This document shows positions 3,316-35,401 of a stretch of 61,639 bases of DNA, piece by piece; the first letter of the stretch is position 1, and each line of letters opens with the position of its first letter. The DNA is from Candidatus Saccharimonadota bacterium (GTDB lineage: Bacteria; Patescibacteriota; Saccharimonadia; Saccharimonadales; UBA4665): NCBI GenBank assembly GCA_028286405.1, contig JAQBRP010000006.1, positions 1-61,639 of the forward strand, read 5' to 3'. Under the pieces are notes generated by a model, which was not told the DNA's origin, searched no databases, and worked only from the letters and a program-made list of their open reading frames with translations. A program made the translations under genes and the position numbers.

Positions 3316-3340
3316 CATAAGCTTAATAATGTAGTATAAT
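3312..3340 (+). promoter_or_regulatory. Perfect consensus sigma70 promoter
   Basis: TTGACA (3312-3317) and TATAAT (3335-3340) are separated by exactly 17 bases. The -35 box overlaps the stop codon of the histidine kinase gene. Transcription would start near 3347 and give a leader of about 235 nt before the membrane protein gene at 3582. The leader contains a GAG-t-ACGGCT-tt-AGCCGT-t-CTC hairpin near 3388-3412. Confidence 0.75.
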
Positions 3341-3581
3341 TCGGCAGTTCTGGAGATTTGTGGCTAAATGCCTATTTCATCAGAGGTCGAGTACGGCTTT
3401 AGCCGTTCTCTTTACAATCTGACGCACCCCTAGACACTCTAACTTTAGTAGAGGGTAACTGATTGTACGCTACCAGTAGTGTGCAGCCAGTTACTCTCCT
3501 CAAGCCAGAGGTGTTCTAACGGCTCAACTGCTGCCAATCACAGCATCTTCCCCAATTGATTGCGACCTGGAGGTCACTGCA

Positions 3582-8835: not shown

Positions 8836-8910
8836 GGCCCCATCGTCTATCGGTTAGGACATCGGGTTTTCATCCCGGCAAGAGGAGTTCGACTCTCCTT
8901 GGGGTCACCA
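8836..8910 (+). tRNA. tRNA-Glu (anticodon TTC)
   Basis: A complete cloverleaf. The acceptor GGCCCCA pairs with TGGGGTC, with discriminator A and an encoded CCA (8908-8910). The anticodon arm CGGG-TTTTCAT-CCCG reads TTC. The T arm is GAGGAGTTCGACTCTCC-like. Its last bases, GGGTCACCA, recur at the end of each of the cassette repeats downstream, so this gene appears to be the anchor of the array. Confidence 0.95.
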
Positions 8911-8924
8911 AAATGATTATGCTT

Positions 8925-8950
8925 AAAGAACTTCGTAAGGAGTTCTTTTT
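8925..8950 (+). terminator. tRNA-Glu terminator, start of cassette 1
   Basis: AAAGAACT (8925-8932) and AGTTCTTT (8941-8948) with a T-run. Closely similar hairpins follow repeat A (9650-9671) and repeat E (14311-14336) at the same distance from the GGGTCACCA end, so the homology between cassette junctions continues past the tRNA end into this hairpin. Confidence 0.85.
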
Positions 8951-8968
8951 GTTTGCTATAGTTATGTT

Positions 8969-9484
8969 ATGGACTATTCTTCAACTACCGAGCTAAGGCT
9001 GGATGTCTGGAACGACAGTGGTACATTTCTTGCGGATAACGACCTTACAGACCGACCATCTGACGGCACCTTCGAGGTAAATGTAAACCTAGTGAATATA
9101 CCTGGTGGCGGGTCAAGCAATGACCATGCTCGTATACGGCAGTTAGAAGACTTCTCAAATACCATTCAGTTTGTTGTAGACAATCAGCGGCAGCTATACG
9201 AAACAATCCTTGACTGCGCTCAGCGAGAGTACGACAAAGCACTTGTAGATAAGGACGCTTACGACCCCGAAATGGTAGATTTGTACTTACCGCCTGTGAA
9301 TAGCAGGGACGATTTGAAAGCATTGCTTCTGCCGCTTAATATCCATGTTGGGTGCACGGACGAAGAGGGAGTTAAATACGTAGCCTACGAATTCGATTGT
9401 AGCTGGGACGACGAACATGGGTTTGGTGTCCGCATGAACGGATTCGAGGTTGAAGAATCTGGTCACGCATCAGTCGGCTTCTAG
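8969..9484 (+). CDS. Cassette 1: hypothetical acidic protein
   Basis: A 171-residue acidic soluble protein with no signal peptide or membrane segment. No family recognised. The start is set by TATAGT at 8957-8962 followed by exactly six bases and ATG, which implies a leaderless mRNA. It is the only gene between tRNA-Glu and repeat A, so it is a one-gene cassette. Residues ~1-40 look beta-rich and ~45-100 helical. Confidence 0.75.
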   Translation: MDYSSTTELRLDVWNDSGTFLADNDLTDRPSDGTFEVNVNLVNIPGGGSSNDHARIRQLEDFSNTIQFVVDNQRQLYETILDCAQREYDKALVDKDAYDPEMVDLYLPPVNSRDDLKALLLPLNIHVGCTDEEGVKYVAYEFDCSWDDEHGFGVRMNGFEVEESGHASVGF

Positions 9485-9492
9485 CCGTACAC

Positions 9493-9635
9493 TTCTACTC
9501 TACAAGGGGGAGTTGTCTACACGGGTGACACCACCCGTAACTGGTTAGCCGGTATGCTGACATTACCGATAACATCATTCCAACGAACGACCTCCGCCAC
9601 CATAGAGTTAAAAAGCGAACCCTCAAGGGTCACCA
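9493..9635 (+). repeat. Cassette repeat A
   Basis: 143 bases. The 5' part has the hairpin ACGGGTG/CACCCGT. The 3' part has CATTCCAACGAAC, then GTTAAAAAGCG, and ends in AAGGGTCACCA, matching the tRNA-Glu 3' end. It is followed by the AAAGACTTCC/GGAAGTCTTT terminator. Confidence 0.85.
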
Positions 9636-9649
9636 ATTTGAAAATGCTT

Positions 9650-9675
9650 AAAGACTTCCTCGGAAGTCTTTTTGT
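9650..9675 (+). terminator. Cassette 2 leading terminator
   Basis: AAAGACTTCC (9650-9659) and GGAAGTCTTT (9662-9671) with a T-run, at the position of the tRNA-Glu terminator relative to the preceding GGGTCACCA. Confidence 0.85.
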
Positions 9676-9738
9676 TTTGCTTATGCTTGCGTGCACCCCT
9701 GAAAGGGTATATAAACATGCCTAATAGCCAGGAGTTAT

Positions 9739-10284
9739 ATGAACGAACGAATAGTAAGAACACTAACTGCGGAAGAAGAAACTTGCCTATTTGGTGCTCA
9801 CGGTCAACTCGGCACGCGGGCTGAAACGGACAAGGTCTATTGGCAAAAAGTTGATCTTGCTTACGACTGGCTTGCACAGCATTGGAATCAAGAGGTACCT
9901 GAAGGATTCACCGAAGACGAAGCTTCTGGTCGTGCTGAAGCCAAGGAGCTGAATGCTAAGTGGCGCGCCGAAGACCCGGGCATAAAGAATACACCCTTGT
10001 TCTCAGAAGAGCCCAGAGATCCTGTTAGCCATGCGTTGCAACTGGAGTGGCGGGACAGTATGAGGGCATTAGGCGCAATCGCCCATCGACCGGTAGTAAG
10101 CACTGCACTGTTACACACCCACAACACTCTCCAAAATGATCCGCTACGAGCTCAGAAGCTCAACTATGTCTTGGAACTCATCGAGAATTTTGAGGCTGAT
10201 TTAATCGCTGGCGATTTTGATAAGGGCGGCCTCTCTCCTGGCTTCAAATTCCCCAAGCCACTAGAAGTGTATAGTCAAGATTAG
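9739..10284 (+). CDS. Cassette 2: hypothetical protein
   Basis: A 181-residue soluble, mostly helical protein rich in Glu, Trp and Leu, without export signals. No family recognised. An AGGAGTTAT site lies upstream of the ATG and a TATAAA -10-like box lies further up, so unlike its neighbours this cassette gene probably has a short leader. It sits alone between repeats A and B. Confidence 0.75.
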   Translation: MNERIVRTLTAEEETCLFGAHGQLGTRAETDKVYWQKVDLAYDWLAQHWNQEVPEGFTEDEASGRAEAKELNAKWRAEDPGIKNTPLFSEEPRDPVSHALQLEWRDSMRALGAIAHRPVVSTALLHTHNTLQNDPLRAQKLNYVLELIENFEADLIAGDFDKGGLSPGFKFPKPLEVYSQD

Positions 10285-10290
10285 TGACCC

Positions 10291-10432
10291 TTCTATTCCC
10301 TAAAGGGGAGTAGATAATATGGCCTAGCCAATATGTAACTGATCGGCTTCAGTACTTATATTACGAATAACATCGTTCCAACGAACAACCTCCCCCACTG
10401 TTGAGTTAAAAAGCGAATCGCAAGGGTCACTA
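10291..10432 (+). repeat. Cassette repeat B
   Basis: 142 bases. It starts TTCTATTCCC, 6 bases after the stop codon of the cassette 2 gene. The 5' hairpin is ATATGGC-cta-GCC-a-ATAT, different in sequence from A but still paired. It ends in CAAGGGTCACTA, one change from GGGTCACCA. No terminator hairpin follows, unlike A and E. Confidence 0.8.
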
Positions 10433-10532
10433 AATCGCTTATGTTTGTCACCTACGGAGAGAGCTCTGGGCGGGTTTATGTGCTCAATTGCTATCCGTGG
10501 CTATTCCAATTTATCCCTGTTATGATACTGCT

Positions 10533-11105
10533 ATGACAGTGGAGCAAATAGCATCAGAAATTAAGCAAAAAACAGCAGGTCGTAAGCCTACACTTATTGC
10601 CATTGAAGGCTTTGGTGGTTCTGGTAAGACAACGTTTGCAACCAGACTCAGGGACGCACTTGGCAAGGCCTATATCGTGAATATTGATGATTTTATAGTT
10701 AAGGAAAAGCTAACTGAGTCGTCATGGGATAAGGGTGGATTTGACCGTGAACGTCTTGAGCGGCAGGTTTTGCAGCCAGCTTCTAAGCAAGAGCTTGTTC
10801 AATACCAAGAACTTATTTGGGAAACAAACACACTGAGCGAACCAAAAGTAGTGCCAGAAGTTAATTATCTTATTATTGAGGGCATTTCATGCTATCACCC
10901 GCGTATACAGCACTACTACGACTATAAAATCTGGGTGGATACACCTATTGAAGTAGCTAAAGCACGAGGCAAGAAACGTGACGCTGGTAATGAAAACGCC
11001 GATAAGTGGGATATGTGGGCGGAAAATGACTTGGCTTACCAGGCGAAGTATCACCCTGAATCGAAAGCCGACTTTGTGATAGATACTGCCGGGGACAAAC
11101 AATGA
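10533..11105 (+). CDS. Cassette 3: P-loop (uridine kinase-like) kinase
   Basis: 190 residues. A Walker A motif GFGGSGKTT lies near residue 27, followed by NIDDF (Walker-B-like Asp pair), the IIEGISCY strand and a WVDTP...ARGKKRD lid region, as in uridine kinase/phosphoribulokinase-type P-loop kinases. It probably phosphorylates a nucleoside or small metabolite; the substrate is not evident. The start is ATG 10533: TATGAT (10521-10526) is six bases upstream, the same leaderless spacing as other cassette genes. An upstream in-frame start at 10488 would place the promoter inside the gene. Confidence 0.85.
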   Translation: MTVEQIASEIKQKTAGRKPTLIAIEGFGGSGKTTFATRLRDALGKAYIVNIDDFIVKEKLTESSWDKGGFDRERLERQVLQPASKQELVQYQELIWETNTLSEPKVVPEVNYLIIEGISCYHPRIQHYYDYKIWVDTPIEVAKARGKKRDAGNENADKWDMWAENDLAYQAKYHPESKADFVIDTAGDKQ

Positions 11106-11381
11106 GCCAGAATGAAGAGCTAGTCAATAGTTTTGAATTAGCAGCTTAGACTGCTCGTGAGTTCCTATTAAGTTTTTGGTGATGCAGTCCTAAAGACGGT
11201 GTGTACGCTCGTTGAACGACAATTCAGTCGTCGCAGACGCAATGAGAACTATTAATCTGGAAGGTTTTCGTCGGAGAGGCAAAGTCGCGTAGCCTTTGAC
11301 AATCTGATGCCAGCGCTTGAAGAAATCAATGGTCGCTCAAGGCAACGAAGTACTTAGAGTAATTTCAAAACCTGGTCGCGC

Positions 11382-11966
11382 TTAGTGTCTTTCACGCAAC
11401 ATTACCCGCCGCCGCCACAGTATAATCGCACAAAATCCAAAATTACCAATCGTCCACACGACCGGATTGGCCAGCGTTAATAGCGTGTAGCTACTGAGCG
11501 CCAATATACTTAAGCCATGCCTAAACCCGTTAATAGCCCACATGGTTAGGGTCTCGCTGTAGGGTCGCTGCCAAGTCTTGCGAATCGACGGTATAAAGCC
11601 AAACATATCGGCACTCACCAGTAGCAACATGGCGAGGGTCGGCTGATCGACTAACAGCCATACCCCTAGTGCGATGAGGGCAACGCCCAACATCATCCAG
11701 TCATGTCGAGTAATCGTAATCCGGTCAACCTGGCGGCTCGCTAGAATACAAATTATGAAACTAATGAACGCGACAGTTAGCGTGGTATAGGCTCCCGGGC
11801 CACCGCCATGCAGAATCTGTAATACAAAAATAAGTGAGGCGGCAAAACCCCAAATAAACCAGCTGAACGGATGCGGCTGTACCTTATGTCGTAGTATATC
11901 TCGAAAATAAGGGGCGTAGGCAACAAAGGCGAGGGCAACCGCTGCAAAGCCAATAAGTTCTTTCAT
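11382..11966 (-). CDS. PQ-loop-like membrane protein
   Basis: 194 residues with about six or seven transmembrane helices. Repeated segments of the type PYFRDILRHKVQPHPFSWFIWG and FIPSIRKTWQRPYSETLTMW resemble PQ-loop/SemiSWEET-type transporter halves, although the PQ pair itself is weak. Small-solute transport is a guess. A TATAAT lies eight bases upstream of the start on the minus strand. It is the only minus-strand gene within the tRNA-Glu cassette region, which suggests this stretch (10433-12973) had a different history. The 276 bases on its 3' side (11106-11381) hold no gene I can support. Confidence 0.75.
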   Translation of the reverse strand: MKELIGFAAVALAFVAYAPYFRDILRHKVQPHPFSWFIWGFAASLIFVLQILHGGGPGAYTTLTVAFISFIICILASRQVDRITITRHDWMMLGVALIALGVWLLVDQPTLAMLLLVSADMFGFIPSIRKTWQRPYSETLTMWAINGFRHGLSILALSSYTLLTLANPVVWTIGNFGFCAIILWRRRVMLRERH

Positions 11967-12036
11967 TGAGTTTGATTATAGACTGGTCGTAAAAAATCCG
12001 ACTGCCTAGAGTGCCCGCAGCAGTCATTCTAGTAAG

Positions 12037-12198
12037 ATGACCGACAAGGAACGACCACCACAAGACGATCCAAGCCCACCTCCAGACATCGCGCCGCAAG
12101 AGGCACTCTATCAATTCCCGACTGAAGCAGAAGCTGTGCAACAGACCAGAGAACAATTCATTGCTCGCATGGCCGGTAAACTGTCGAGAAAAGAGTAG
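12037..12198 (+). CDS. Small Pro-rich acidic protein
   Basis: A 53-residue ORF starting MTDKERPPQDD. The N-terminal half is Pro/Asp-rich and probably disordered. The C-terminal half (FPTEAEAVQQTREQFIARM) looks helical. No family recognised. It is divergent from the membrane protein gene at 11966 and ends 19 bases before the next gene. Base composition and in-frame codon use look coding, but its small size keeps confidence moderate. Confidence 0.5.
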   Translation: MTDKERPPQDDPSPPPDIAPQEALYQFPTEAEAVQQTREQFIARMAGKLSRKE

Positions 12199-12217
12199 AC
12201 TTTGCTATAGTTAAACT

Positions 12218-12790
12218 ATGAAGCACTCAGAATTATTGTATGACTCGGTTAGCGTAGAACGTGGTAACGAACTCCTCGGGTTATTTGTAGAGTATGCCAA
12301 TATGCAAGGCGAGCTTCATGCTAGGGCTGATGAGCGTAACCGATATTTTGTAGACACTACACGTCGGTTGACTGACGAAGCAATCACTCAGTCTTTGGAT
12401 AATTTCGATTACACCAATCTAGGGCGAGCCGTGATGGATGCTCGTCTTGTACAGCAGCGATACGACGAAGAAGCTGAAGCGGCTAAAGATTTGGCACCAA
12501 CTGTCTGGACTGGCACCGAATCAATACGTCAATTCATAAGACAACACGAGGGGAGCCCGCTTGCAGTAAGGGTTCGGGACAGAAATGGGGCGGCAATTCA
12601 TACGTATGGTGGCGGACAGTCAAGACGGGCTAGTGGTTTTCTGGTTGCTAGCATGGGCGGTAGTGGTAGTTTAATTACAAACATTAGTTTTAAAAGTCGC
12701 ATGACGTCAAAACGTTCGCACGCCATCAGGGTTCTTGATTATCGAGGTATGCCTCAAGTGGACCTAGCAATTGGTGCCACTGGTAAATAA
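12218..12790 (+). CDS. Cassette gene: hypothetical protein
   Basis: 190 residues, soluble. The N-terminal two thirds are helical and charged. The C-terminal third (residues ~105-190) is beta-rich with RNGAAIHTYGGGQ. No family recognised. TATAGT (12206-12211) is exactly six bases before the ATG, giving a leaderless mRNA. It is followed by repeat C. Confidence 0.75.
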   Translation: MKHSELLYDSVSVERGNELLGLFVEYANMQGELHARADERNRYFVDTTRRLTDEAITQSLDNFDYTNLGRAVMDARLVQQRYDEEAEAAKDLAPTVWTGTESIRQFIRQHEGSPLAVRVRDRNGAAIHTYGGGQSRRASGFLVASMGGSGSLITNISFKSRMTSKRSHAIRVLDYRGMPQVDLAIGATGK

Positions 12791-12830
12791 ATGTCCAAAT
12801 AGTTAAGCAAATCCATTTGTTGCCCTATGG

Positions 12831-12973
12831 TTCTACTCTACTAAGGGATGTAAAGTGAGCGTGCTATTTTACCCGTGACAGGTTAGGTCGTAGGCCAACG
12901 TTACTGATTACATCATTCCAACGAACAACTTCTGCCACTACTGAGTTAAAAATCGAAGGCTCAAGGGTCACCA
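12831..12973 (+). repeat. Cassette repeat C
   Basis: 143 bases, starting TTCTACTCTAC and ending CAAGGGTCACCA, with CATTCCAACGAAC and GAGTTAAAAA in between. The 5' hairpin is weak here. The cassette between B and C is 2.5 kb with four genes, longer than the others, so intervening repeats may have been lost. Confidence 0.8.
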
Positions 12974-12975
12974 AA

Positions 12976-13058
12976 GTAGAATTACAGATAAGAATAAGCG
13001 CCCAAAGTTCCCCAAATGAGCTAGGGCGCTTTTCGTATCTGTTAACAAGTTTGATTCT
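12976..13058. repeat. Long imperfect palindrome after repeat C
   Basis: ACAGATA (12984-12990) pairs with TATCTGT (13036-13042), AGCGCCC (about 12997-13003) with GGGCGCT (about 13024-13030), and TAGAAT with ATTCT at the outer ends. A second copy, about 88 bases, follows repeat D. It may be a bidirectional terminator, since T-runs flank the inner stem, taking the place of the simple terminator seen in other cassettes. Confidence 0.65.
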
Positions 13059-13091
13059 CCTATGCCCAAGGATATTTGGTATAGTAAGCTC

Positions 13092-13352
13092 ATGACAGCC
13101 CATGCAGAACTCGATGATCTCGGTAGCGACTTAGCTGCTCAGATTGATGGTAGATTCTCTCAACTGGAGGGTGATATTGGCGCAGGTGTAGATGAGCGCA
13201 CAACTAGAGCTGACACAGCGTTTAGACGACTTTATACCTCTGTAGCAACAATACGCGAGGGTGACAGTTGGGAAAATAACGTCAGATTCAAACTTCAGTA
13301 TGGCCTTGGGCATACCACTCTTGAGCAGCTATTCCCCGAACTCGCCTACTAG
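13092..13352 (+). CDS. Cassette 4: small helical protein
   Basis: 86 residues if translated from 13092. That ATG is chosen because TATAGT (13080-13085) lies exactly six bases upstream, as in the other cassette genes; a longer frame from 13062 would run through the promoter. The protein is helical and charged, starting MTAHAELDDLG. No family recognised. Repeat D begins at the base after its stop codon. Confidence 0.65.
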   Translation: MTAHAELDDLGSDLAAQIDGRFSQLEGDIGAGVDERTTRADTAFRRLYTSVATIREGDSWENNVRFKLQYGLGHTTLEQLFPELAY

Positions 13353-13450
13353 TGACTGGTTATATTGCAAGCTCGCACTACGAATAACCTCATTCCAACG
13401 AACCACTTCCGCCACTATAGCGTTAAAAAGCGGATGCGGAAGGGTCACCA
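13353..13450 (+). repeat. Cassette repeat D (5'-shortened)
   Basis: 98 bases; it lacks the first ~45 bases of the others. The last 67 bases differ from repeat E at seven positions. CTTCCGC pairs with GCGGAAG around GTTAAAAAGCG, and two of the differences from E compensate each other in this stem. It ends AAGGGTCACCA. Confidence 0.8.
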
Positions 13451-13451
13451 T

Positions 13452-13539
13452 AAGAGAATTACAGATAAGAATTAGCGCCCATAACTCAATAAATGAATGA
13501 GGGCGTTTTTTCGTATCTGTTAATAAGTTCGATTCTCTT
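13452..13539. repeat. Long imperfect palindrome after repeat D
   Basis: AAGAGAAT (13452-13459) pairs with ATTCTCTT (13532-13539), ACAGATA with TATCTGT (13514-13520), and GCGCCC (13475-13480) with GGGCGT (13501-13506) followed by TTTTTT. It is homologous to the 12976-13058 element. The probable role is terminator insulation between cassettes. Confidence 0.65.
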
Positions 13540-13562
13540 TACAGTCTTGCTATAGTTAGGCT

Positions 13563-14132
13563 ATGAACACTACCTACCAAGCCTCAATCACACATGCCAA
13601 AAGTCTCTATGACGGTTTTGATGACGTTATCCATGATTGGCAGCACTCAGAAAGAGTCGCCACCAATGCACTGTTGCTTGCCGATGAGCTGGGCTTTAAA
13701 GATAAGGACTTTTTGGAACTATGCGCGCTATGGCACGACGCGGCTAGAACCCAAGGCTTTACCGTTGGTCATGAGGAAGAAGGAGCGCTTATGGCACAAG
13801 CAGATCTGTTATCTCGTGGAGTCTCCGCAGATGAGGCTGTTAGAGCTTATGAGGCTATTCGTCACCACAAGAGTAGTTCTAATCCAACATCCATAGAGGG
13901 AAAAATCATTCGTGACGCAGATAAGCTCGATATTTTTACTGTAGCTCGATGGCAGAAATGTGCCGAAGCTGGCTGGATTGAAGAGTACGTTGATGATTTA
14001 CGTAAAACGGTTGCAGCGCATGGAAAATACCCAGCGGCATTTACATATGACTATACAAAGCAGCAATTTGAAAAACGACTGCCAGAGTTCCTGTATTATT
14101 ACGATTCCGTAAAGGATAGTCTGCCCGAATAA
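13563..14132 (+). CDS. Cassette 5: HD-domain phosphohydrolase
   Basis: 189 residues forming one HD domain. The metal ligands appear as DWQHSERV (first His), LWHDAART (HD pair), IRHHKSS and IRDADKLD (last Asp). HD proteins of this type hydrolyse phosphate esters of nucleotides or second messengers; the substrate cannot be read from sequence. TATAGT at 13551-13556 is exactly six bases before the ATG. It is the only gene between repeats D and E. Confidence 0.88.
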   Translation: MNTTYQASITHAKSLYDGFDDVIHDWQHSERVATNALLLADELGFKDKDFLELCALWHDAARTQGFTVGHEEEGALMAQADLLSRGVSADEAVRAYEAIRHHKSSSNPTSIEGKIIRDADKLDIFTVARWQKCAEAGWIEEYVDDLRKTVAAHGKYPAAFTYDYTKQQFEKRLPEFLYYYDSVKDSLPE

Positions 14133-14153
14133 CATAGACGGCTAGTACCTACG

Positions 14154-14296
14154 TTCTATTCCTCAAAGGGGAGTAGATAACACGGGCTAGGCTACCCGTA
14201 ACTGGTTAGCTTCAAGACTGACGTTCCGTATAACATCATTCCAACGAACAACTTCCACCACTGTAGAGTTAAAAAGCGGGTGTGGAAGGGTCACCA
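14154..14296 (+). repeat. Cassette repeat E
   Basis: 143 bases from TTCTATTCCTC to AAGGGTCACCA. 5' hairpin ACGGG/CCCGT; 3' hairpin CTTCCAC/GTGGAAG around GTTAAAAAGCG. It is followed by TTATGCTTAAAGAACTTC and a terminator (14311-14336) nearly identical to the bases that follow tRNA-Glu. Confidence 0.85.
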
Positions 14297-14310
14297 AATT
14301 GCTTATGCTT

Positions 14311-26069: not shown

Positions 26070-26458
26070 GGGGCTGAATTTTAAGCTCGACGTTGGACTT
26101 TATCGGTTAGATCAGCAGGTCGCTTGTCAGCGTATAGACAAACCTTTACAGATGCAAATCTTAAAGAACAGGTATTAGCAACCTTCGGCAATTTTACTTT
26201 TGCCCCAGTGCGCGTACCTACAGCAGCCTAATTTAGACTGCAACGCATTACGTATGACTTCAGATAGTATGTAGCGTTTTATATCCTCTGGATGCTCGTT
26301 TAGTACTATTCGCACTCGACGCTAAGACTAGGATTGCTCACTTGGAATGTTTGTCTGTTTAGATAACCAAGTGCTAAGACCAAAAGACAGACTATGCCTG
26401 TAGACGACTAACCAAGATAAACCGGCGGACGTGGGGGCAGTACCCACCAGCTCCACCA
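26070..26458 (+). ncRNA. ssrA: tmRNA
   Basis: 389 nt. The ends form the tRNA-like acceptor: GGGGCTG (26070-26076) pairs with CAGCTCC, followed by A and an encoded CCA (26456-26458). The 5' side has the GCTCGACG-like segment typical of tmRNA. A reading frame begins at a GCA resume codon near 26155 and encodes a tag starting ANLKEQVLA and ending VRVPTAA before TAA, about 25 residues. TATAAT lies at 26054-26059. The T-arm stem GTGGG/CCCAC encloses GGCAGTA instead of the usual TTCGANT loop, which is odd. tmRNA rescues stalled ribosomes with SmpB. Confidence 0.88.
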
Positions 26459-26495
26459 TAAGAGCCTTAGATGCAAGATCTAGGGCTTTTTTGTT
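26452..26495 (+). repeat. Island attachment repeat, left (tmRNA end + terminator)
   Basis: 44 bases made of TCCACCA of tmRNA, AAGAGCC and the terminator hairpin (AGCCTTAGAT/ATCTAGGGCT plus a T-run). The same 44 bases recur at 29477-29520 with three differences, all in the hairpin loop. The two copies enclose the kinase-TPR operon, so this looks like attL of an integrated element. The hairpin also serves as the tmRNA terminator. Confidence 0.85.
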
Positions 26496-26646
26496 GGTCT
26501 GAAAGGAGTAAAGAGGACTTAATTTAGTGGTACCAACTTTTTTATCTGCGTAAAGATATAAACCACCTGGAAATAATAATTGTGCGACACTCTCAGCCAA
26601 ACAAACACTTTGGCGATTTTTAATCACTCCAACTATAATGAATAAA

Positions 26647-27606
26647 ATGCTACAAACTGGAGAAGTTGTACACCACTATGTTGTGGTTGCGCCGAAAGGC
26701 GACGGAACCTACGGGGCCGTGTTTGAAGTGCAAGACACGACCACAAACGCCCTCAACGTTGCACTTAAAATATTAACGGCCACTAGCCCGATAGCCGACA
26801 CACGCTTTAGGGCTGAGAACGGGCATCTACACACGCTTAAGGGTCATGATAGTGTGATAAGTCCTACTACACATGTACTCGATATTGGCGGTAAAACCTT
26901 TTACTGCATGGAGCTTGCCGATACTAATGTTGATAAGTACATATCTTCTAAAGCATTAGGTAATGATGAAGCTATTGGAATATTCAAAAATGTATGTGAA
27001 GGGCTGAGTCATGCCCATAACAACGGTATTGTGCACCGGGACTTACATCTGGGGAACGTATTATTAATGACTGCCGATCCTGCGCAAGCCTCCCCTCGAG
27101 TTACTGATTTTGGCATGGCAAAAGATTTTAACGGTATGAACATAAGTAGCATTCCGGCAAGCGTATGGGGAGCAGTAGAAATTCGACCCCCGGAAATATT
27201 TTTTATGCTGTGGCCAACAGCAGAACTTGAAGAATACATACGGTCGGACATATACGCTCTTGGCATACTCCTGCACAACTTATTCGATGTGCGTCCAACG
27301 GCCTACCTTTTCGGCTTAATAAACTCAGTCGTGAGCCATCTGTGGAGTAAAGGCGTGCTGGTTGACGGACAAACATTTCAAATCGATCCAACCGTAGATG
27401 ACGTCTCTCGAAAGCAGTTTTATGACGAATGGTTAAGCATATACGACCGTACTAATCAGGATAAATTAGCGGTTACATTACGTGAGCCTAATCCCGCCCT
27501 CGAAGTAGAGGTTAACAGAATAATTCAAAAATGTTGCGAACCGGACTACAATGATAGATATATGACAGTGGATGAATTGCTAACTGATGTGAGTGCAATA
27601 TGTTAA
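26647..27606 (+). CDS. Soluble Ser/Thr protein kinase
   Basis: About 319 residues forming one Hanks-type kinase domain. It has the Gly loop GDGTYGAVFEV, VALKIL with the catalytic Lys, IVHRDLHLGNVLL (HRD loop), VTDFGMAK (DFG) and an APE-like RPPEIFF. No membrane helix or PASTA repeats, so it is cytosolic. The start at 26647 is chosen because TATAAT (26634-26639) ends seven bases before it; the earlier ATG at 26638 overlaps that box. It overlaps the TPR gene by 7 bases (ATGTTAA), so the two proteins are translated together. Both lie inside the tmRNA island. Confidence 0.9.
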   Translation: MLQTGEVVHHYVVVAPKGDGTYGAVFEVQDTTTNALNVALKILTATSPIADTRFRAENGHLHTLKGHDSVISPTTHVLDIGGKTFYCMELADTNVDKYISSKALGNDEAIGIFKNVCEGLSHAHNNGIVHRDLHLGNVLLMTADPAQASPRVTDFGMAKDFNGMNISSIPASVWGAVEIRPPEIFFMLWPTAELEEYIRSDIYALGILLHNLFDVRPTAYLFGLINSVVSHLWSKGVLVDGQTFQIDPTVDDVSRKQFYDEWLSIYDRTNQDKLAVTLREPNPALEVEVNRIIQKCCEPDYNDRYMTVDELLTDVSAIC

Positions 27607-29345
27607 CACCAGGTCTTGTCGAAAAAAAAGAAGCAACGGCGATCGCAGGATCGAATAAGCCGGTCTATTCACGAAAACCAGATCCGATACAGCAATTCAA
27701 AGCAAGTGAGCGTGCAGCGCCCGGCAGTTTTATGGCTCAAATACTAGCAAAAGAAAGAGAGTTGGCAAAGCTTCGTATCAGACGGAGTGGTGAAAATCCC
27801 CGTAGTGTTATCGAAATTGGTGATATCCACTTTTTGAAAAAGAAATTTACTAAAGCCAGGGATGCATATCTTAATGCGATTAAACTCGACAAGAATAATA
27901 GTGCCGTCTACCGCAAGCTTATCAATTGCTATATAGCGCTTAATAACGTTGATTTGGCGTGCGAATGCTACGAAAACTTGATAGCTATAAATCCTCTACC
28001 TGAGTTTAAACACGAGTACGTCTTGCTAAGGCTAGCCACTGCAAACGGCGACAAGGATAAGTTGAAAGCAGTTGAAACTGATTTAAAAAACTTAGTCCAA
28101 GAAAATAATACTAATAGTCACGTATTGAATACCTACGCAATGTATCTAGGTCATGTCAGTGAAAAACCTGAACAGTCTAAGAAGTACCTCGATAAAGCAA
28201 TAAACTTGGATCCAAGCAATTTCCACGCAATCAATAATCTTGGCGTCTACTATGTTCAAACTAATCAGCTAGATAAGGCTAGAGAGCAATTTGATAATAG
28301 TTTAGAGTTAAATCCACAGTACGATGCTGGTTACGAAAATATAGCCGGCGTATACATAGCTCAAGAGGATTATAAGAATGCGCTAGCGGTCTTAGAAAAA
28401 GCTGCTGCACTCGGCGTGCGTTTATCTGATAAATGGGTTCATAAAGTCGGGTGGATATTAATTCAGCTTGGAGAATTTAAACGAGCAGTTGTCTGGCATA
28501 AACAAAAGCTACGGGAAGAGCCAGAAAATGACTACTTACTTAATAATTTGGGTTTTTGTTATCAAATGTTAGACAACATAGAAAAGGCTCAGGAGTACTT
28601 CTCTAAAGCAATCGAGTGTTTTGAGGCTAAGTTAAATCGGCCAGGTTTTATTCCCGACATACGATCTAAGCTCGAGTATCAAAACCTAATGGCGCTCGCC
28701 CAAGATCTGGGTAATGCTGACCTACTTGATGATACTGCTAAAAAATTACTGGCACTGGAGCCGTCTAGTCCTATGGGATTTTTCTTTAGAGGACAGGCAC
28801 AGAGAATGAAAAAGAATTATACCTTCGCCAAAAAGTGCTATGAAGCGTCAATTAAAGGTGAGCCAGGTGTACCGGATCCATATGTCTGCCTAGCATTCAT
28901 ATACGAGGCAATTGATAGTAACTACACGAAAGCTATAGATATACTGGAGAATGCACCGTTCAAGTCTGATGTAGCCCCACTATTCACAAACAACTTAGCG
29001 TACGCATATATCAAAAATGGGGACTTGAAGAAGGCAGAAAGTCTGCTAGCTAAAGTAAAATTGATTTCACATCCGTCACTGTTTGCGACTAGAGGACTAT
29101 TGGAGCTTTATAAGGACGATTTCAAAAAAGCTGAAAGTTATTACTCTAAAGCAATCAAAAACTTGCATGCAGATGATAAGCAGTTTGCAGAACAGGTATG
29201 GGAGTATGAGCAGGCGCTATACTGGAAAAATAATAATGACATCTTGCGGTCGCAAAAATCCATAGAAAACGCTTTAAAATTAGGTGACGTTAGTTATGCT
29301 TATGACCTTACGAAGGCACTAGAGGTTGCCGTTAAGTCACACTAG
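27600..29345 (+). CDS. TPR-repeat protein, kinase partner
   Basis: 581 residues. After a disordered N-terminal ~55 residues, about a dozen tetratricopeptide repeats run to the end, for example AINNLGVYYVQTNQLDKAREQF and NNLGFCYQMLDNIEKAQEYF. No signal peptide or enzyme motif. TPR arrays bind partner proteins, so it may scaffold substrates of the kinase encoded just upstream. The gene is more AT-rich than the glycolytic genes nearby, in keeping with an island origin. Confidence 0.88.
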   Translation: MLTPGLVEKKEATAIAGSNKPVYSRKPDPIQQFKASERAAPGSFMAQILAKERELAKLRIRRSGENPRSVIEIGDIHFLKKKFTKARDAYLNAIKLDKNNSAVYRKLINCYIALNNVDLACECYENLIAINPLPEFKHEYVLLRLATANGDKDKLKAVETDLKNLVQENNTNSHVLNTYAMYLGHVSEKPEQSKKYLDKAINLDPSNFHAINNLGVYYVQTNQLDKAREQFDNSLELNPQYDAGYENIAGVYIAQEDYKNALAVLEKAAALGVRLSDKWVHKVGWILIQLGEFKRAVVWHKQKLREEPENDYLLNNLGFCYQMLDNIEKAQEYFSKAIECFEAKLNRPGFIPDIRSKLEYQNLMALAQDLGNADLLDDTAKKLLALEPSSPMGFFFRGQAQRMKKNYTFAKKCYEASIKGEPGVPDPYVCLAFIYEAIDSNYTKAIDILENAPFKSDVAPLFTNNLAYAYIKNGDLKKAESLLAKVKLISHPSLFATRGLLELYKDDFKKAESYYSKAIKNLHADDKQFAEQVWEYEQALYWKNNNDILRSQKSIENALKLGDVSYAYDLTKALEVAVKSH

Positions 29346-29476
29346 TACCGAGTTAACCGGTGGCGCATTAACCACAGGGCAGTCATGACAGTTGTGAAGC
29401 AAGATGGTCTGGTGGCATAAGCTCACGCCATCTCATCTGTTCAGCTGCAATTGAGTGCCAACTTTTGCAAGCATGG

Positions 29477-29520
29477 TCCACCATAAGAGCCTTAGATGTA
29501 TAATCTAGGGCTTTTTTGTT
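29477..29520 (+). repeat. Island attachment repeat, right (copy of tmRNA end)
   Basis: A copy of the tmRNA 3' end and terminator (41 of 44 bases as at 26452-26495), with no tmRNA body before it. It marks the right boundary of a ~3.0-kb island and fits attR left by site-specific integration into ssrA. The hairpin can also terminate transcription. The 130 bases between the TPR gene and this copy hold a GATGG/CCATC hairpin but no gene. Confidence 0.85.
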
Positions 29521-29527
29521 AGGGTCC

Positions 29528-31207
29528 TTACTTAATTCCTAGACTACCAAGTTCGGTCAAATGCTGTTTGCGATATTGGGTAAATGCTTGGGCGCTGGCA
29601 CCGTTGCGTTTAATGAATTGATTGATGTGCTCGTCGCCGATGTGGTGGGGCATGAGCACAAAGGCGGCCCCGGCTTCGTACAGTGCTTCGGCGTCGTTCA
29701 GGGTGTCGGCGTGGCAAATGAATACCGCCTGCGAATTAGCGCCCGTAATATGACTGACCAGCACCAGGTTAGTGCGGGCATTGCTGATAGTACTAATGAT
29801 CAGCTCGGATTTGTGGACGTTAATTTCGGCTAGCAATTCAGTGTCGGTGGCATCGCCATATAAATGACTAATGTGCTGGCGCTCCAGTACTTCAATGACG
29901 TCGGGGTCGTAATCAATCACCATGTAGCGCTTTTTCATTTCGCGAAAGGTTTTTACAAAGCCGGCACCACCTTCGCTGTAGCCGATCAGCAGTAGCGGGT
30001 AGTGGGCTAATGAGCGTAGCTCTCGCTTGGTGTCGCCTCGTTCAAAAAAGCTCAACGGCTGCTGCAGCCGGCGGTACAGCCAGTCGTCGTACTTCATGAG
30101 GTAGGCCGAAATGGCAATAGTAATGAGCGCGGTGAGGGTGGCAATGGCAATTAGGTCGTGGCTGGCCAGGCCAGTGTTGGCCGCCAGCACAATCAGCACG
30201 ATCGAGAACTCACTGATTTGCGACAAGTGAATAGCAGTTTTGAAGCTAGTCTGCTTGGTGTAGCCGAGCAGGCCCAGGCTACCCATAATTAAGAGCGGTT
30301 TACTAATAAGAATAATTGCCGAGAACAGCAGGGCTGGCAGAATAGCGCTGCCCAGGTTGCCAATACCGAGCTGCTCGCCCAGACCAATAAAGAACAGCAC
30401 AATAAAGAAGTCACGCAGTGGCTTCAGCTTGCTGGCGATGGCTTGCACATAGGGCAGGTGGGCCAAGGCGACACCGGCAAACAGCGCTCCCACTTCGATA
30501 GAAAAGCCCGACCAGCGGAAGGCGCTGGCTACGCCAAAGGCCCAGGCCAGCGCAAACACGTACAAAAGCTCCTGGCTGGCAGCGAACAGTCGGCTGAGGC
30601 GCGGCAAAATGTAGCCGCCAATCAATATGAGTACGCCGGCCAAAAAGGCACCGCGGGCCAGTAGCACGGTGAAGTCGAGCGGTGCCGTACCGGTAGTGCT
30701 GCTGGTAGATACGACCAGCAGGGCAATGGTGGCAGCCAGATCCTCAACCAACAGCACGCCAATAGCAATTTGGCCGTACAGCCGGGACTGCTCTTTTTTA
30801 TCGCTCAAGGCCTTCACGACAATAATGGTGCTGCTAAATAAGAGTGCCGTGGCCATAACCAGGGCCGCTTTAATGTCAAAGCCGAGCAGGGTGGCAGTTA
30901 GCATGCCCAAACTACCGACGCCAGCTACAATCGACGCAAAAATGACAAACACCGGTTTGCCGGTGTCTTTTATAACGCCCACGTTCAGGCCCAGGCCAAT
31001 CACAAACAACAGCAGTGTGATGCCAATCTGGCTGAATGATTCAAAAGCTTCGTGGTTATGAATAACGCCGAGCAGCGACGGGCCCACAACAATGCCGGTT
31101 AGAATGTAGCCGATTATCAGGGGTTGGCGGAAGACGCGCAGCACCAGCGAGACGGCTGCGGCGATCACCAGCACAATACTTAATTGGTAAAAAATTGACT
31201 GTTCCAT
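29528..31207 (-). CDS. CPA2 cation/proton antiporter with RCK domain
   Basis: About 559 residues. Some 12-13 transmembrane helices (residues ~5-390) have the CPA2/Kef pattern. They are followed by a cytosolic RCK/TrkA-N domain with GYSEGGAGF, VIDYDPDVIEVLE and HLYGDATDTELL, which binds nucleotides and gates K+/H+ exchange in relatives. The probable role is K+ or Na+ efflux and pH control. I chose the ATG at 31207; an in-frame GTG at 31240 lies upstream. It faces the island's right boundary, 7 bases from the repeat. Confidence 0.9.
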   Translation of the reverse strand: MEQSIFYQLSIVLVIAAAVSLVLRVFRQPLIIGYILTGIVVGPSLLGVIHNHEAFESFSQIGITLLLFVIGLGLNVGVIKDTGKPVFVIFASIVAGVGSLGMLTATLLGFDIKAALVMATALLFSSTIIVVKALSDKKEQSRLYGQIAIGVLLVEDLAATIALLVVSTSSTTGTAPLDFTVLLARGAFLAGVLILIGGYILPRLSRLFAASQELLYVFALAWAFGVASAFRWSGFSIEVGALFAGVALAHLPYVQAIASKLKPLRDFFIVLFFIGLGEQLGIGNLGSAILPALLFSAIILISKPLLIMGSLGLLGYTKQTSFKTAIHLSQISEFSIVLIVLAANTGLASHDLIAIATLTALITIAISAYLMKYDDWLYRRLQQPLSFFERGDTKRELRSLAHYPLLLIGYSEGGAGFVKTFREMKKRYMVIDYDPDVIEVLERQHISHLYGDATDTELLAEINVHKSELIISTISNARTNLVLVSHITGANSQAVFICHADTLNDAEALYEAGAAFVLMPHHIGDEHINQFIKRNGASAQAFTQYRKQHLTELGSLGIK

Positions 31208-31330
31208 GAGACTTTCAAGCTTATGGTTATTAGTGTACACGACCCCAAGCTGAGAAACTGCTTGACTTGGCCTTGATTTCTCGTATATTTAAAGCATAAC
31301 TGTAATATAAAAAGGAATACGGGACACTGT

Positions 31331-33967
31331 ATGCCATCGAAAACTACCACCAAATCGTCCAAAAAGCCGAAAAATGGCTTATTTACTAAAGTAAAAGCCC
31401 TAGCAACCGGAAAAGCGAAGCCCTTTCTTGCTGTATTAATTGTCCTGGGCGTGGTGGGCCTGGGCTACTACGGCTACCTGCGTTCCAGTGCTGACACGCT
31501 CAGCAACACGCCGCCAACCGTTAAATGTGCCGCAAAACTCACTAATAAAGAATGTAATCAAAAGCAGGCCGAATCAGACGCCGCGTTTTACGCACAGCTT
31601 GGAAAAGATTGTAACGCCGCTAACCGCAAATTTAGCGGTACTAGCTGCGGTGCCTGTCAAGGAGGCTTCTTTGACAATAACGGCACCTGTAAAGCCCGCG
31701 CCAAAGTCGACTGTGCTGCTCAAAACCGCAAGCAGACCGATGATTACAACTGCGGTGATTGCAAGGCGACCTACACACTAAGTGGAACGGCATGTGTGCC
31801 AAAGCTCGTAAACTCTGCAGCGCTCTGCGCCTTAGCCTTCAAGAACTACGATGCCACGGCTAATGCTTGCACAACCTGTAAGGCTACCTACACATTAAGC
31901 GGTACCACGTGTGTGCCTGACTCAACTACGACACCCGTACCTCCTACGGCCTGTGGTGGCCAAGGCCAGGCGGCTTGTGAGCAAGCAACCGGTGTTTACT
32001 GTGCCGGATTGCACCGTGTATTCGTGGCTAAAACGAAGACCTGTGGTGCTTGTGTCGCCACCTTTACCCAAGTCGGTACCGATCTCACTACCGCGTGCCA
32101 GCCAGTACTGACACCCGACCAGCAATGTGCCTTTAACGGATCGGGCAACTGTTTGCCCGTAGCTACTGTCCGTAAGCTGTGTGCCGATAGCCATCGTCAA
32201 TACGACGCCAAAAACAATCTCTGTAAAGATGATTGTGTGAGCGGCTGGTATTTTGAGAATAATGTCTGTAACAAAGTCAGTACCGTTGATCCCGCCAAAG
32301 TGAAGGCCGGCTGTGACAAGCTCTTCCTGCGTTACGACAAAGACACTAACCGTTGTCTGACCACCTGTAAGGCTACCTACGTTATGCGTGATAACAAGTG
32401 TGTAGAGTGGACAGAAGCCAGCATGACTAAGTGGCGCTGTGACGCCTTGGGTCGCGACTGGATTCCTGCAACTGAAGCCGATGGTGATGTGGCTGGCATG
32501 CCTGCCCTCTGTGCCACAAAGTGTGAAAGCTCGACCGCAAAGTTCGTTGATACTGGCAATGATGACAATAGCTATTGTAAGGCAGGTGAAGCTGCTGGTG
32601 CCGGCGTGGGTGTTACACCTGGCATGACCCGCGAACAATGTACGGCTCAACACCGTGCCTGGATTACTGCTCTGGAAGGCTGTAGCGCACGTTGCCAGGC
32701 CGATTGGTACTTGAATGATGGTAAGTGTACTGAAGTTAAGGTGCCGGCTAATGACACCACTGATGGTGACGGTGCAGCTGGTGGTTGTTCTACTGCTGAG
32801 CAAACGGTGCGGCTTGCTGTTCGCGGCACTGCCGATGGCCCAGTCGTCACCGCCCCTGAAGTAACTATTTGTCCCGATGACGATCCGGTTGATCCACCGG
32901 CAAATACTCCTGCCGACCAGCCAGTAACGCACGATGTTGCTGTCCTCATGGACCACGCAACCTGTACGAAGCTGGGACGTGTTTGGGTTCCAGACTCTAA
33001 TACTGTCGGTAAAAAAGTAAAGGGTGGCTGTAGTACTCAAGAATGCCTAGTTAAGGGTGCTGAAGTGCGTCGCTCAAATGGCTCTGCCTACTGTGAAGGT
33101 AGTGTGGATCGAATTGCCCAAAAGGAATGCAATAAAGCCCACCGTGACTGGATCGAAGAAGTTAACGCTTGTGCTGCTCGCATTGGCGGCAAAGACTCTA
33201 AAACCAAAGTCAACGCTATGCAATGTGATCCTCCATACACCGTGTATGTGCAACACACCAAAGAGCAGGGAGTTGACGAGTGCGTGAAGCCTTCTGTCTT
33301 CCAGCGAATCCAGGGAGTAGCTCAAACTACCGGTAAGCCAGTCTCGTTCCTTGCCTCATTAGGACCAAAAGGCCTCTGTAACGTCCAGAAGAACAAGCAA
33401 TGGATTGACGGTAAGTGCGTTAAAAAGCGCGTTCCAAACCCAAGCAGTAGTGAAGGCCCAACCGCGAATGGCGGCGGCTCAGGCGGCAGCAGCGGCAGTC
33501 AAGGTGGCTCCGGTGGCTCTGGCTCAGGTAGTAGCGGCGAATCAACCATTACGGCTGCCTGGTGTCGCGATAACCTACGCCGTGGTTACGACGCCACCGC
33601 CAAGACATGTTCTCGCAGCTGTGCGTTCGCCGGCGAACAAATTACTAACTATACAGATAGCAGTAAATGGGATGTCTGTAAGAGAGCTACGGTGTGCGAT
33701 GGCTGGGATCAAGCTTGTACCGGTGGCGGTGGGACAAGTGGAAACGGTAATCAAAATACTGGATGGACAACCAAAACCATTCCCTGCTCTGAGTACTCCA
33801 CACGGGTGGGTGGCGGTGTGGGGTGTGTTGTAACCGTTGTAAAAACTGGGACTATCTGCCAGTGGAGTTCAACAATTAGGTACACAAACTATAAGACATC
33901 AGTAGCGAGCTTCCGTGATAGTGGGCATAAGATTATCTATACGTCCAGAACATGTGGGCCAGCATAA
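31331..33967 (+). CDS. Giant Cys-rich repeat surface protein
   Basis: 878 residues. A basic N-terminus and one membrane helix (residues ~36-56, no clear cleavage site) are followed by an external chain of Cys-rich modules of 35-55 residues. A typical module reads C-x(n)-R-x-YD-x(n)-N-x-C-x2-C-x-A-T-Y-x-L-S-G-T-x-C. At least ten modules are visible, some near-identical (CKATYTLSGTTCVP). A Gly/Ser linker lies near residues 712-737 and a last Cys-rich domain ends the protein. It resembles eukaryotic EGF-like or furin-like arrays in form only. Probably a disulfide-bonded stalk or adhesin. Confidence 0.85.
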   Translation: MPSKTTTKSSKKPKNGLFTKVKALATGKAKPFLAVLIVLGVVGLGYYGYLRSSADTLSNTPPTVKCAAKLTNKECNQKQAESDAAFYAQLGKDCNAANRKFSGTSCGACQGGFFDNNGTCKARAKVDCAAQNRKQTDDYNCGDCKATYTLSGTACVPKLVNSAALCALAFKNYDATANACTTCKATYTLSGTTCVPDSTTTPVPPTACGGQGQAACEQATGVYCAGLHRVFVAKTKTCGACVATFTQVGTDLTTACQPVLTPDQQCAFNGSGNCLPVATVRKLCADSHRQYDAKNNLCKDDCVSGWYFENNVCNKVSTVDPAKVKAGCDKLFLRYDKDTNRCLTTCKATYVMRDNKCVEWTEASMTKWRCDALGRDWIPATEADGDVAGMPALCATKCESSTAKFVDTGNDDNSYCKAGEAAGAGVGVTPGMTREQCTAQHRAWITALEGCSARCQADWYLNDGKCTEVKVPANDTTDGDGAAGGCSTAEQTVRLAVRGTADGPVVTAPEVTICPDDDPVDPPANTPADQPVTHDVAVLMDHATCTKLGRVWVPDSNTVGKKVKGGCSTQECLVKGAEVRRSNGSAYCEGSVDRIAQKECNKAHRDWIEEVNACAARIGGKDSKTKVNAMQCDPPYTVYVQHTKEQGVDECVKPSVFQRIQGVAQTTGKPVSFLASLGPKGLCNVQKNKQWIDGKCVKKRVPNPSSSEGPTANGGGSGGSSGSQGGSGGSGSGSSGESTITAAWCRDNLRRGYDATAKTCSRSCAFAGEQITNYTDSSKWDVCKRATVCDGWDQACTGGGGTSGNGNQNTGWTTKTIPCSEYSTRVGGGVGCVVTVVKTGTICQWSSTIRYTNYKTSVASFRDSGHKIIYTSRTCGPA

Positions 33968-34168
33968 CACTGCTCAGTGTGCCCGCTTTGCCGAGGCTGG
34001 CAGGCGGGCAGGCATAAACCATTGACTCAGAATAATAATCATGCTAATGTATAGGTATTGTTATTGATGAATCCGGGTTGTTTTAGTTAGTATTACTCGA
34101 TTTCATAATCACAATCGACGTAACACTAATGAGCCAAAAGGCTCTACTAAAACGAAGGATTCTTTTTA

Positions 34169-35401
34169 ATGCCTTATCAATCTAAAACACGTAGTTTCGG
34201 CGGACGCCGTAACACTAATACCAATCAACGCAGTAGCTTCCATGGTGGCGGACACGGCGGCGGTAACCGCGGTCGCAGTCCCAGCCGAAAAGGTCCAAAA
34301 AAGGACTACATCGACCCAGCCCGCTTTGTTAAAGCCGCTAAACCAGTTGAGCGCGAAGCGTATGTTCCTCAGCACACCTTTGCTGACTTTGACTTGAGTC
34401 CCCAGATGGCCAAGAACATTGCCGACAAGGGCTTTGTAACGCCATCAGCTATTCAGGACCAATCAATCCAGCACATTATGGCTGGCCGCGACATTATCGG
34501 AATTGCCGACACCGGCACCGGTAAAACAGCCGCCTTTGGTATTCCAATGCTGAACGCCATGATGACTAATAAGGGTAAAGCCCTGGTTATTGCACCAACT
34601 CGCGAACTAGCCCAGCAGATCGACGCCGAATTCCGCGCCATCGCCAAGGGCAGTGGCCTGCACGGTGCCGTACTCATTGGTGGTACCAGCATGGGTCCGC
34701 AATTGCGTGATCTACGTTCGAACCCCCAAATTGTTATTGGTACCCCTGGTCGTATTAAGGACCACATTGAGCGCCGCAGCCTCAGCTTGCACGACTTTTC
34801 ATACGTCGTGCTCGACGAAGTTGACCGCATGCTCGACATGGGCTTCATTAACGATGTTCGTAGCATTCTTAACGAATTGCCAAAAGAGCGTCAGTCGATG
34901 TTCTTCTCAGCAACCATGGACCGTGCTGTGAGTTCACTCATCGAAACCTTCTCACACGAACCAATTACTGTTTCAGTTAAGACCGGCGAAACAGGTGAAA
35001 ACATTCACCAAGATGTTGTTCGGGTTAATCACGACAGCGAAAAGCTCGGCAAACTGCACGATCTATTGCTTGACGATAAAATGACCAAGACCATCATCTT
35101 TGATGACACCCAGCGTAGCGTTGAACGCTTAGCTAACGAACTTGTTGCTCGTGGCTTCCAAGCCGACGCCATTCATGGTGGCAAAACGCAGGGCCAACGC
35201 CAGCGTTCGCTAAAGCGCTTTAAAGACAGTGAAGTGACTATCCTGGTGGCAACCGATGTTGCAGCTCGGGGCATCGACGTTGTTGATGTTAGCCACGTTG
35301 TAAATTACTCCACACCACAATCGTATTCCGATTACGTGCACCGTATTGGTCGCGCCGGCCGTGCTGGTCGTGTGGGTTACGCACTGACTTTCCTTCCCTA
35401 A
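34169..35401 (+). CDS. DEAD-box RNA helicase
   Basis: 410 residues. It has the Q motif (SAIQDQSIQ), Walker A ADTGTGKTAAF, PTRELAQQ, motif II VLDEVD (DEVD in place of DEAD), SAT, TDVAARGID and HRIGRAGRAGR. The first ~45 residues are rich in Arg, Gly and Ser, as in RNA-binding tails. It remodels RNA in ribosome assembly or mRNA decay. The upstream region (33968-34168) contains a GAGCC/GGCTC hairpin (about 34132-34145) in what is probably a long 5' leader. Confidence 0.95.
   Translation: MPYQSKTRSFGGRRNTNTNQRSSFHGGGHGGGNRGRSPSRKGPKKDYIDPARFVKAAKPVEREAYVPQHTFADFDLSPQMAKNIADKGFVTPSAIQDQSIQHIMAGRDIIGIADTGTGKTAAFGIPMLNAMMTNKGKALVIAPTRELAQQIDAEFRAIAKGSGLHGAVLIGGTSMGPQLRDLRSNPQIVIGTPGRIKDHIERRSLSLHDFSYVVLDEVDRMLDMGFINDVRSILNELPKERQSMFFSATMDRAVSSLIETFSHEPITVSVKTGETGENIHQDVVRVNHDSEKLGKLHDLLLDDKMTKTIIFDDTQRSVERLANELVARGFQADAIHGGKTQGQRQRSLKRFKDSEVTILVATDVAARGIDVVDVSHVVNYSTPQSYSDYVHRIGRAGRAGRVGYALTFLP

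Follow-up and report, generated by a model that had tools for sequence, protein, structure and literature searches.

An island behind the tmRNA gene of a Saccharibacteria-type bacterium is very probably a recombinase-less cassette of a large serine recombinase system

The 61,639-nucleotide stretch of a Candidatus Saccharimonadota genome analyzed here (contig JAQBRP010000006.1, hereafter the window) carries, directly behind its tmRNA gene (ssrA), an island bounded by two copies of the tmRNA 3' end. Very probably, this island belongs to a large serine recombinase (LSR) system, of which it would be a non-autonomous integrative cassette that has lost the recombinase and kept both halves of the attachment site attP. 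The repeat comprises the last 7 bases of the tmRNA, the spacer and the terminator (44 bp), the tmRNA proper contributing only those 7 bases and the terminator the rest. Its copies are identical at 41 of 44 positions (93%), whereas the next-best match in the whole window, on either strand, reaches 30/44, and therefore the repeat is not due to chance; a preliminary description of this DNA had pointed out the duplication and its three changes, and both stand. The island is richer in A and T than the window (G + C of 0.417 versus 0.514). Moreover, its cargo, a protein kinase and a TPR protein, is absent at all 40 tmRNA loci of relatives examined, most of which have rsmA upstream of the tmRNA, and in the same-genus genome G001 the gene next to the tmRNA is the ortholog of window gene 35497, with colinear genes behind it. 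This agrees with the site-specific insertion at the tmRNA 3' end that had been proposed, no conservation of the kinase-TPR pair at this place being found.

Both ends of the island encode pieces of an LSR on the minus strand (Table 1). At the left end, a C-terminal remnant reads into the tmRNA and matches the LSR C-termini of relatives with an E value of 3e-6 (phmmer), whereas the best of 50 shuffled versions searched against the LSR open reading frames (ORFs) gave 0.056. The LSR motif 'LLFPGG...TTKLSPLY', which lies beyond the terminator, is included in the match, and about 50 LSR codons are kept on this side, more than in the cassettes behind tRNA-Glu described below. At the right end, the native C-terminal tail of an LSR starts inside the repeat. 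When the ends of the island are joined in silico, a single open frame extends from the left remnant across the core and along the tail up to a stop codon, the two ends thus holding both attP halves with a short common core. Since the remnants join in frame through the core, the island would correspond to an LSR element minus its recombinase. In this case, a complete LSR is not encoded by the island, which has the C-terminal remnants only, and because the recombinase itself is missing the island would be a derivative and not a complete LSR element. The earlier observation that no integrase is present holds for intact genes, and the kinase and the TPR gene are indeed the only intact genes between the repeat copies, the two minus-strand remnants having been overlooked. 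A Pfam search with the tail as a stand-alone gene or family gave no match of note. Also, a reading of the right flank as a half-site of the Xer/dif type was dropped, this flank being LSR coding sequence, and direct DNA similarity between the right end of the island and the elements behind tRNA-Glu was not significant, their relation appearing only in translation.

LSR genes of related genomes show where such remnants would come from. The loci retrieved contain 68 distinct LSR ORFs. Of these, 44 enter the 3' end of a tRNA gene in antisense (Glu, Gly, Met, Leu, Asn, Arg, Trp, Gln, Asp, and Pro), same-strand overlap with a tRNA occurs in none, and further LSR ORFs adjoin tmRNA. For LSRs of the matching clade that overlap a tRNA, the CCA end is crossed in the frame of the tail in 21 of 24, where one third would be expected. 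For example, G043 has an LSR gene immediately after tRNA-Glu; the 3' end of this gene extends antisense across the terminator and enters the tRNA in that same frame. Because the LSR runs into the RNA gene in the frame of the tail, an excised circle would continue the LSR through the core into the tail, with attP lying inside the LSR gene. An unsplit gene comprising LSR and tail (559 aa) is found in G196, and in G123 a copy of the LSR end (99.6% over 259 bp) runs into the native tail, its twin running into tRNA-Glu. A 259-bp inverted repeat of the LSR end, with one copy leading into tRNA-Glu and the other into the native tail, is seen at L238:18-377 and 3236-3526. The LSRs have the domains PF00239 and PF07508, in some cases with PF13408, and their PDB matches include the TP901-1 integrase and TnpX. 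Elements bearing an LSR are also present at tmRNA, in G010 (~4.1 kb) and, judged by C-termini antisense to the tmRNA, in G155 and G034. Moreover, a terminator-like hairpin and T-run on the strand of the RNA gene occurs in the LSR coding sequence past the tRNA in 21 of 25 LSR genes, versus 7 of 25 expected from random windows of those genes. Thus, the LSR coding sequence seems also to provide the RNA gene with a substitute terminator, which would be the reason why the tmRNA end and its terminator look duplicated.

Based on these features, a complete element would carry attP within the 3' part of its LSR gene, and the LSR would join this site to the 3' end of an RNA gene, here the tmRNA. After joining, the body of the recombinase would lie at the side of the RNA gene and read antisense through the terminator into it, whereas the coding tail for the native C-terminus would be left at the far end. 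The att-proximal LSR coding sequence would serve on its other strand as the terminator, so the RNA gene would keep an intact 3' end and terminator. In the cassettes, the recombinase would be lost, both attP halves kept and cargo carried instead, movement depending on an LSR supplied in trans. The remnants and their in-frame junction, the overlaps of LSRs with RNA genes, the unsplit LSR-tail genes, the LSR elements at tmRNA, and the arrays can all be read in the sequence; catalysis by an LSR, mobility in trans, and the direction of array growth are what we infer. It may also be that integration alters or switches off the LSR by exchanging its native tail for an RNA-antisense one.

The window has a second locus of this kind. 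The preliminary description had noted small cargo without an integrase behind tRNA-Glu, and five cassettes (8911-14298) are indeed found there, every one ending in an LSR-type tail akin to the right tail of the island. Short frames of the same type close at least six tmRNA cassettes in the relative G053. They begin inside the copy of the RNA-gene end, and their third codon position is the most variable (variable columns by codon position 6/4/9 and 8/7/16 of 19). A profile of the tail has matches in 43 of 60 related genomes at E values up to 0.5, the weakest being uncertain; the better matches, which are antisense to the RNA gene, group into arrays behind tRNA-Glu, tRNA-Met, tRNA-Gly, tRNA-Lys, or tmRNA, and some tails carry stops or frameshifts. 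In 11 arrays or single-cassette loci, 32 cassettes measure 477-3025 bp (median 947) and mostly have a single ORF, and the longest ORF lies on the strand of the RNA gene in 82 of 106 cassettes. Also, cargo is common to different sites, as the loci L044 (tmRNA) and L112 (tRNA-Gly) encode a common product (66% over 96 aa), and a cargo family of a second array of the source genome, L103, recurs in L105, L109, and L119. That second array (L103:100-2450, contig C1) has tails of the tRNA-Met type (LVAQ...HSNWN), and its cargo has relatives among the cassettes of three other genomes.

Short uniform cassettes, cargo common to different RNA genes and genomes, and the absence of the kinase-TPR pair at the tmRNA loci of relatives favor movement in trans over repeated decay in place, and most likely the LSR-less cassettes were moved by an LSR acting in trans. 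Therefore, of the shared trans-acting mechanism suggested previously for the two loci, the common mechanism is borne out by the tRNA-Glu array and the action in trans is likely. For the growth of arrays, attL might still serve as attB after a first insertion, or internal attP-like junctions might be used.

The most serious alternative is that a complete LSR element sat at the tmRNA and an internal deletion left the LSR ends around the cargo, so that the cassette would at no time have moved in the absence of its own recombinase, the arrays being stacks of such relics. The length of LSR sequence kept on the left of the tmRNA island, which exceeds that of the tRNA-Glu cassettes, the existence of LSR-bearing elements at matching sites, the stops or frameshifts of some tails, and several array genomes in which no LSR of this clade was detected would all fit such a decay. 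However, independent decay would hardly produce cassettes that are uniformly short, with exact ends, mostly a single ORF and no LSR, several to an array, nor would it readily place homologous cargo at different RNA genes and in different genomes; this explanation is thus considered unlikely. Nonetheless, several points weigh against a cassette moved in trans. No LSR of this clade was detected in several array genomes, and the only one of the source genome, at tRNA-Gly, is frameshifted, so the enzyme that moved the cassettes is not at hand. Moreover, the cassette model does not account for repeated insertion into one target, the unsplit copy of G123 is part of an inverted repeat at the end of a contig and may be an artifact of assembly, and the loci are from metagenome-type draft genomes, that of the source being 75% complete. 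The LSR of the source genome (L187:3441-4914, contig C16) is frameshifted after codon 374, which may be genuine or an assembly error, and its second half runs into the tRNA-Gly at c[4838-4914].

The enzyme class favored in the preliminary description, a tyrosine recombinase, does not fit either locus. The 3' ends of ssrA and tRNA genes are classic targets of tyrosine integrases, as for the islands at tmRNA (PMC9580842), contig C4 carries a Xer-like gene, and additional tyrosine recombinases occur in a few arrays. On the other hand, the island ends and the tRNA-Glu cassettes encode LSR pieces, the duplication covers only 7 tmRNA bases, and the genes adjoining RNA genes are LSRs and not tyrosine recombinases. 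The genome search that had been proposed yielded, besides the frameshifted LSR, one tyrosine recombinase, this Xer-like gene (PF00589), which lies outside the contig of the window; neither the island nor the window has a tyrosine integrase. Almost every relative has exactly one such Xer-like gene, irrespective of arrays. For these reasons, an island made by a tyrosine recombinase or Xer is very improbable. The extra tyrosine recombinases of L106, L135, L138, and L139 were also rejected as the driver, since they are sporadic and in L139 and L143/L106 an LSR sits at the RNA gene. They form a related family of ~305 aa found as cargo near LSRs or tails, usually beside a gene of ~210 aa. Even less credible is that the reverse-strand frames are products of chance or of the terminators, with the repeat being a local duplication of the tmRNA end. 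T-run terminators read in reverse are lysine-rich, and several unrelated tmRNA terminators also give 'NKK', but the match of the left remnant extends beyond the terminator to the LSR motif and the shuffled versions fall short of it; moreover, dozens of genomes have members of the tail family at the ends of RNA genes, and these follow the LSR frame.

In LSR elements, attP usually lies beside the LSR gene. The system described here shares with LSR elements and phages of the TP901-1, phiC31, and Bxb1 type, and with PLE 1 of V. cholerae (PMC6002521), the Resolvase and Recombinase domains, partly with a zinc ribbon, as well as a short common core and a single specific target. It differs in that attP is located within the LSR gene, the targets are the 3' ends of RNA genes, the terminator of the RNA gene is LSR sequence, and LSR-less cassettes form arrays. 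With integrons (IntI, attI, and attC cassettes) it has in common arrays in which the cassettes are short, mostly have a single ORF, point largely in one direction, and end in related sites; however, these end sites are LSR attP halves and the platform is a tRNA or tmRNA gene instead of attI and a promoter. No IntI was found near the arrays, the sole PF00589 gene of the genome being the Xer-like one on the other contig, although no IntI-specific model was run. Thus, the system works like an integron made from unrelated parts and is not an integron. Islands of the Islander/TIGER type at tRNA and tmRNA genes, which have tyrosine integrases (PMC9580842), are similarly inserted at the 3' end and restore the RNA gene, whereas here a serine recombinase is involved, only ~7-9 bases are identical to the RNA gene, and most cassettes lack an integrase. 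The joining of coding sequence across attP also has parallels. SSV-type integrases of archaeal viruses are tyrosine recombinases whose coding sequence is joined across attP on circularization. In the haloarchaeal virus SNJ2, the circular form creates a reading frame across attP, also with a tyrosine recombinase (PMC13107129). Here, circularization would likewise join coding sequence across attP, but it concerns the C-terminus of a bacterial LSR, and the cassettes keep the two halves.

Taken together, it is fairly likely that Saccharibacteria-type bacteria have a serine-recombinase analogue of the integron, with attP in the recombinase's own gene, coding sequence that doubles as a terminator, insertion in trans of LSR-less single-gene cassettes, and arrays at tRNA and tmRNA 3' ends. 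If so, this would explain how small-genome, host-dependent bacteria without an integrase of their own gain accessory genes, through cassettes that are modular in their targets (at least 10 tRNA species and tmRNA) and depend on serine recombinases, enzymes that generally integrate without host factors and are prized as genome-engineering tools. An unusual design would become testable, in which integration rewrites the C-terminus of the recombinase while the same DNA gives the RNA gene its terminator, and a search rule would be gained, as a reverse-strand tail at an RNA-gene end finds cassettes whose cargo is mostly unannotated.

The distribution was followed with a profile of joined LSR ends, A3, with six rows including the left remnant; because these rows were drawn partly from the window and its relatives, A3 matches in them arise by construction. 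At E 1e-3, this profile has matches in 160 of 295 genomes of the order, but phylum-wide at E 1e-4 in only 20 of 287, 11 of them in the order of the source (source genome included). The nearest named LSR record is from 'Candidatus Saccharibacteria bacterium'. A scan of viral contigs with four LSRs found no relative, and plasmid and phage collections gave distant LSRs only (best matches 22-27% identical). No account of the system was found in the literature searched, preprints and most subscription journals being outside its coverage, and the LSR cassettes, widespread in Saccharibacteria-type bacteria, are apparently undescribed. LSRs of other clades also enter tRNA 3' ends (L162, L172, L174, L179, L183, L195, L197, L201, L205, and L206; tRNA-Trp, Asp, Gly, Asn, Leu, Pro, and Arg), crossing the CCA end in the other two frames, which suggests that the design is broader than the clade studied.

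Table 1. Features of the tmRNA island and of the tRNA-Glu array in the window
Feature	Position	Strand	Basis or content
tmRNA (ssrA), insertion target	26070..26458	+	Rfam RF00023, 55.8 bits
Left repeat copy, tmRNA end and terminator, attL side	26452..26495	+	Direct repeat D9
LSR C-terminal remnant reading into tmRNA, LAESVAQLLFPGGLYLYADKKVGTTKLSPLYSFQTNKKALDLASKALMV	26452..26600	-	phmmer versus LSR ORFs, E 3e-6; A3, E 3e-20 (own row in A3)
Cargo protein kinase	26638..27606	+	PF00069, E 8e-26; PADLOC PDC-M71A, E 2e-12, outscored by other kinase models
Cargo TPR protein	27600..29345	+	TPR families; PADLOC PDC-M71B, E 7e-20
LSR native C-terminal tail, 33 codons, starting in repeat, MVDHACKSWHSIAAEQMRWRELMPPDHLASQLS	29386..29484	-	Translation, profile, in-frame junction with left remnant
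Right repeat copy, attR side, probably the original tmRNA terminator	29477..29520	+	Direct repeat D9
tRNA-Glu(ttc), target of second array	8836..8910	+	ARAGORN, Rfam
Cassette 1, ORF 8969-9484 (DUF6985)	8911..9637	+	LSR tail 9532-9636 (-)
Cassette 2, ORF 9739-10284	9638..10434	+	Frameshifted tail 10336-10419 (-)
Cassette 3, perhaps composite, kinase-like ORF 10488-11105 and two other ORFs	10435..12975	+	Tail 12870-12974 (-)
Cassette 4, ORF 13062-13352	12976..13452	+	Tail 13347-13451 (-)
Cassette 5, HD-domain ORF 13563-14132	13453..14298	+	Tail 14193-14297 (-)

As for the cargo of the island, the kinase and the TPR protein could possibly be a two-gene phage-defense pair. PDC-M71, a candidate defense system of PADLOC, likewise consists of adjacent kinase and TPR genes, and both of its components are matched. 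However, these matches are of partial length, several other kinase models are better for the kinase, and PDC-M71 is itself only a candidate.

The tmRNA of the window is missed by ARAGORN and detected by Rfam; therefore, a search for elements targeting tmRNA would overlook such loci if it depended on ARAGORN. Finally, between the island and gene 35497 the window contains a further segment (29528-35401) with a Na/H antiporter, an 878-aa protein lacking Pfam matches, and a DEAD helicase. The segment showed no signature of an attachment site, and its genes are absent at the corresponding place in the same-genus G001.

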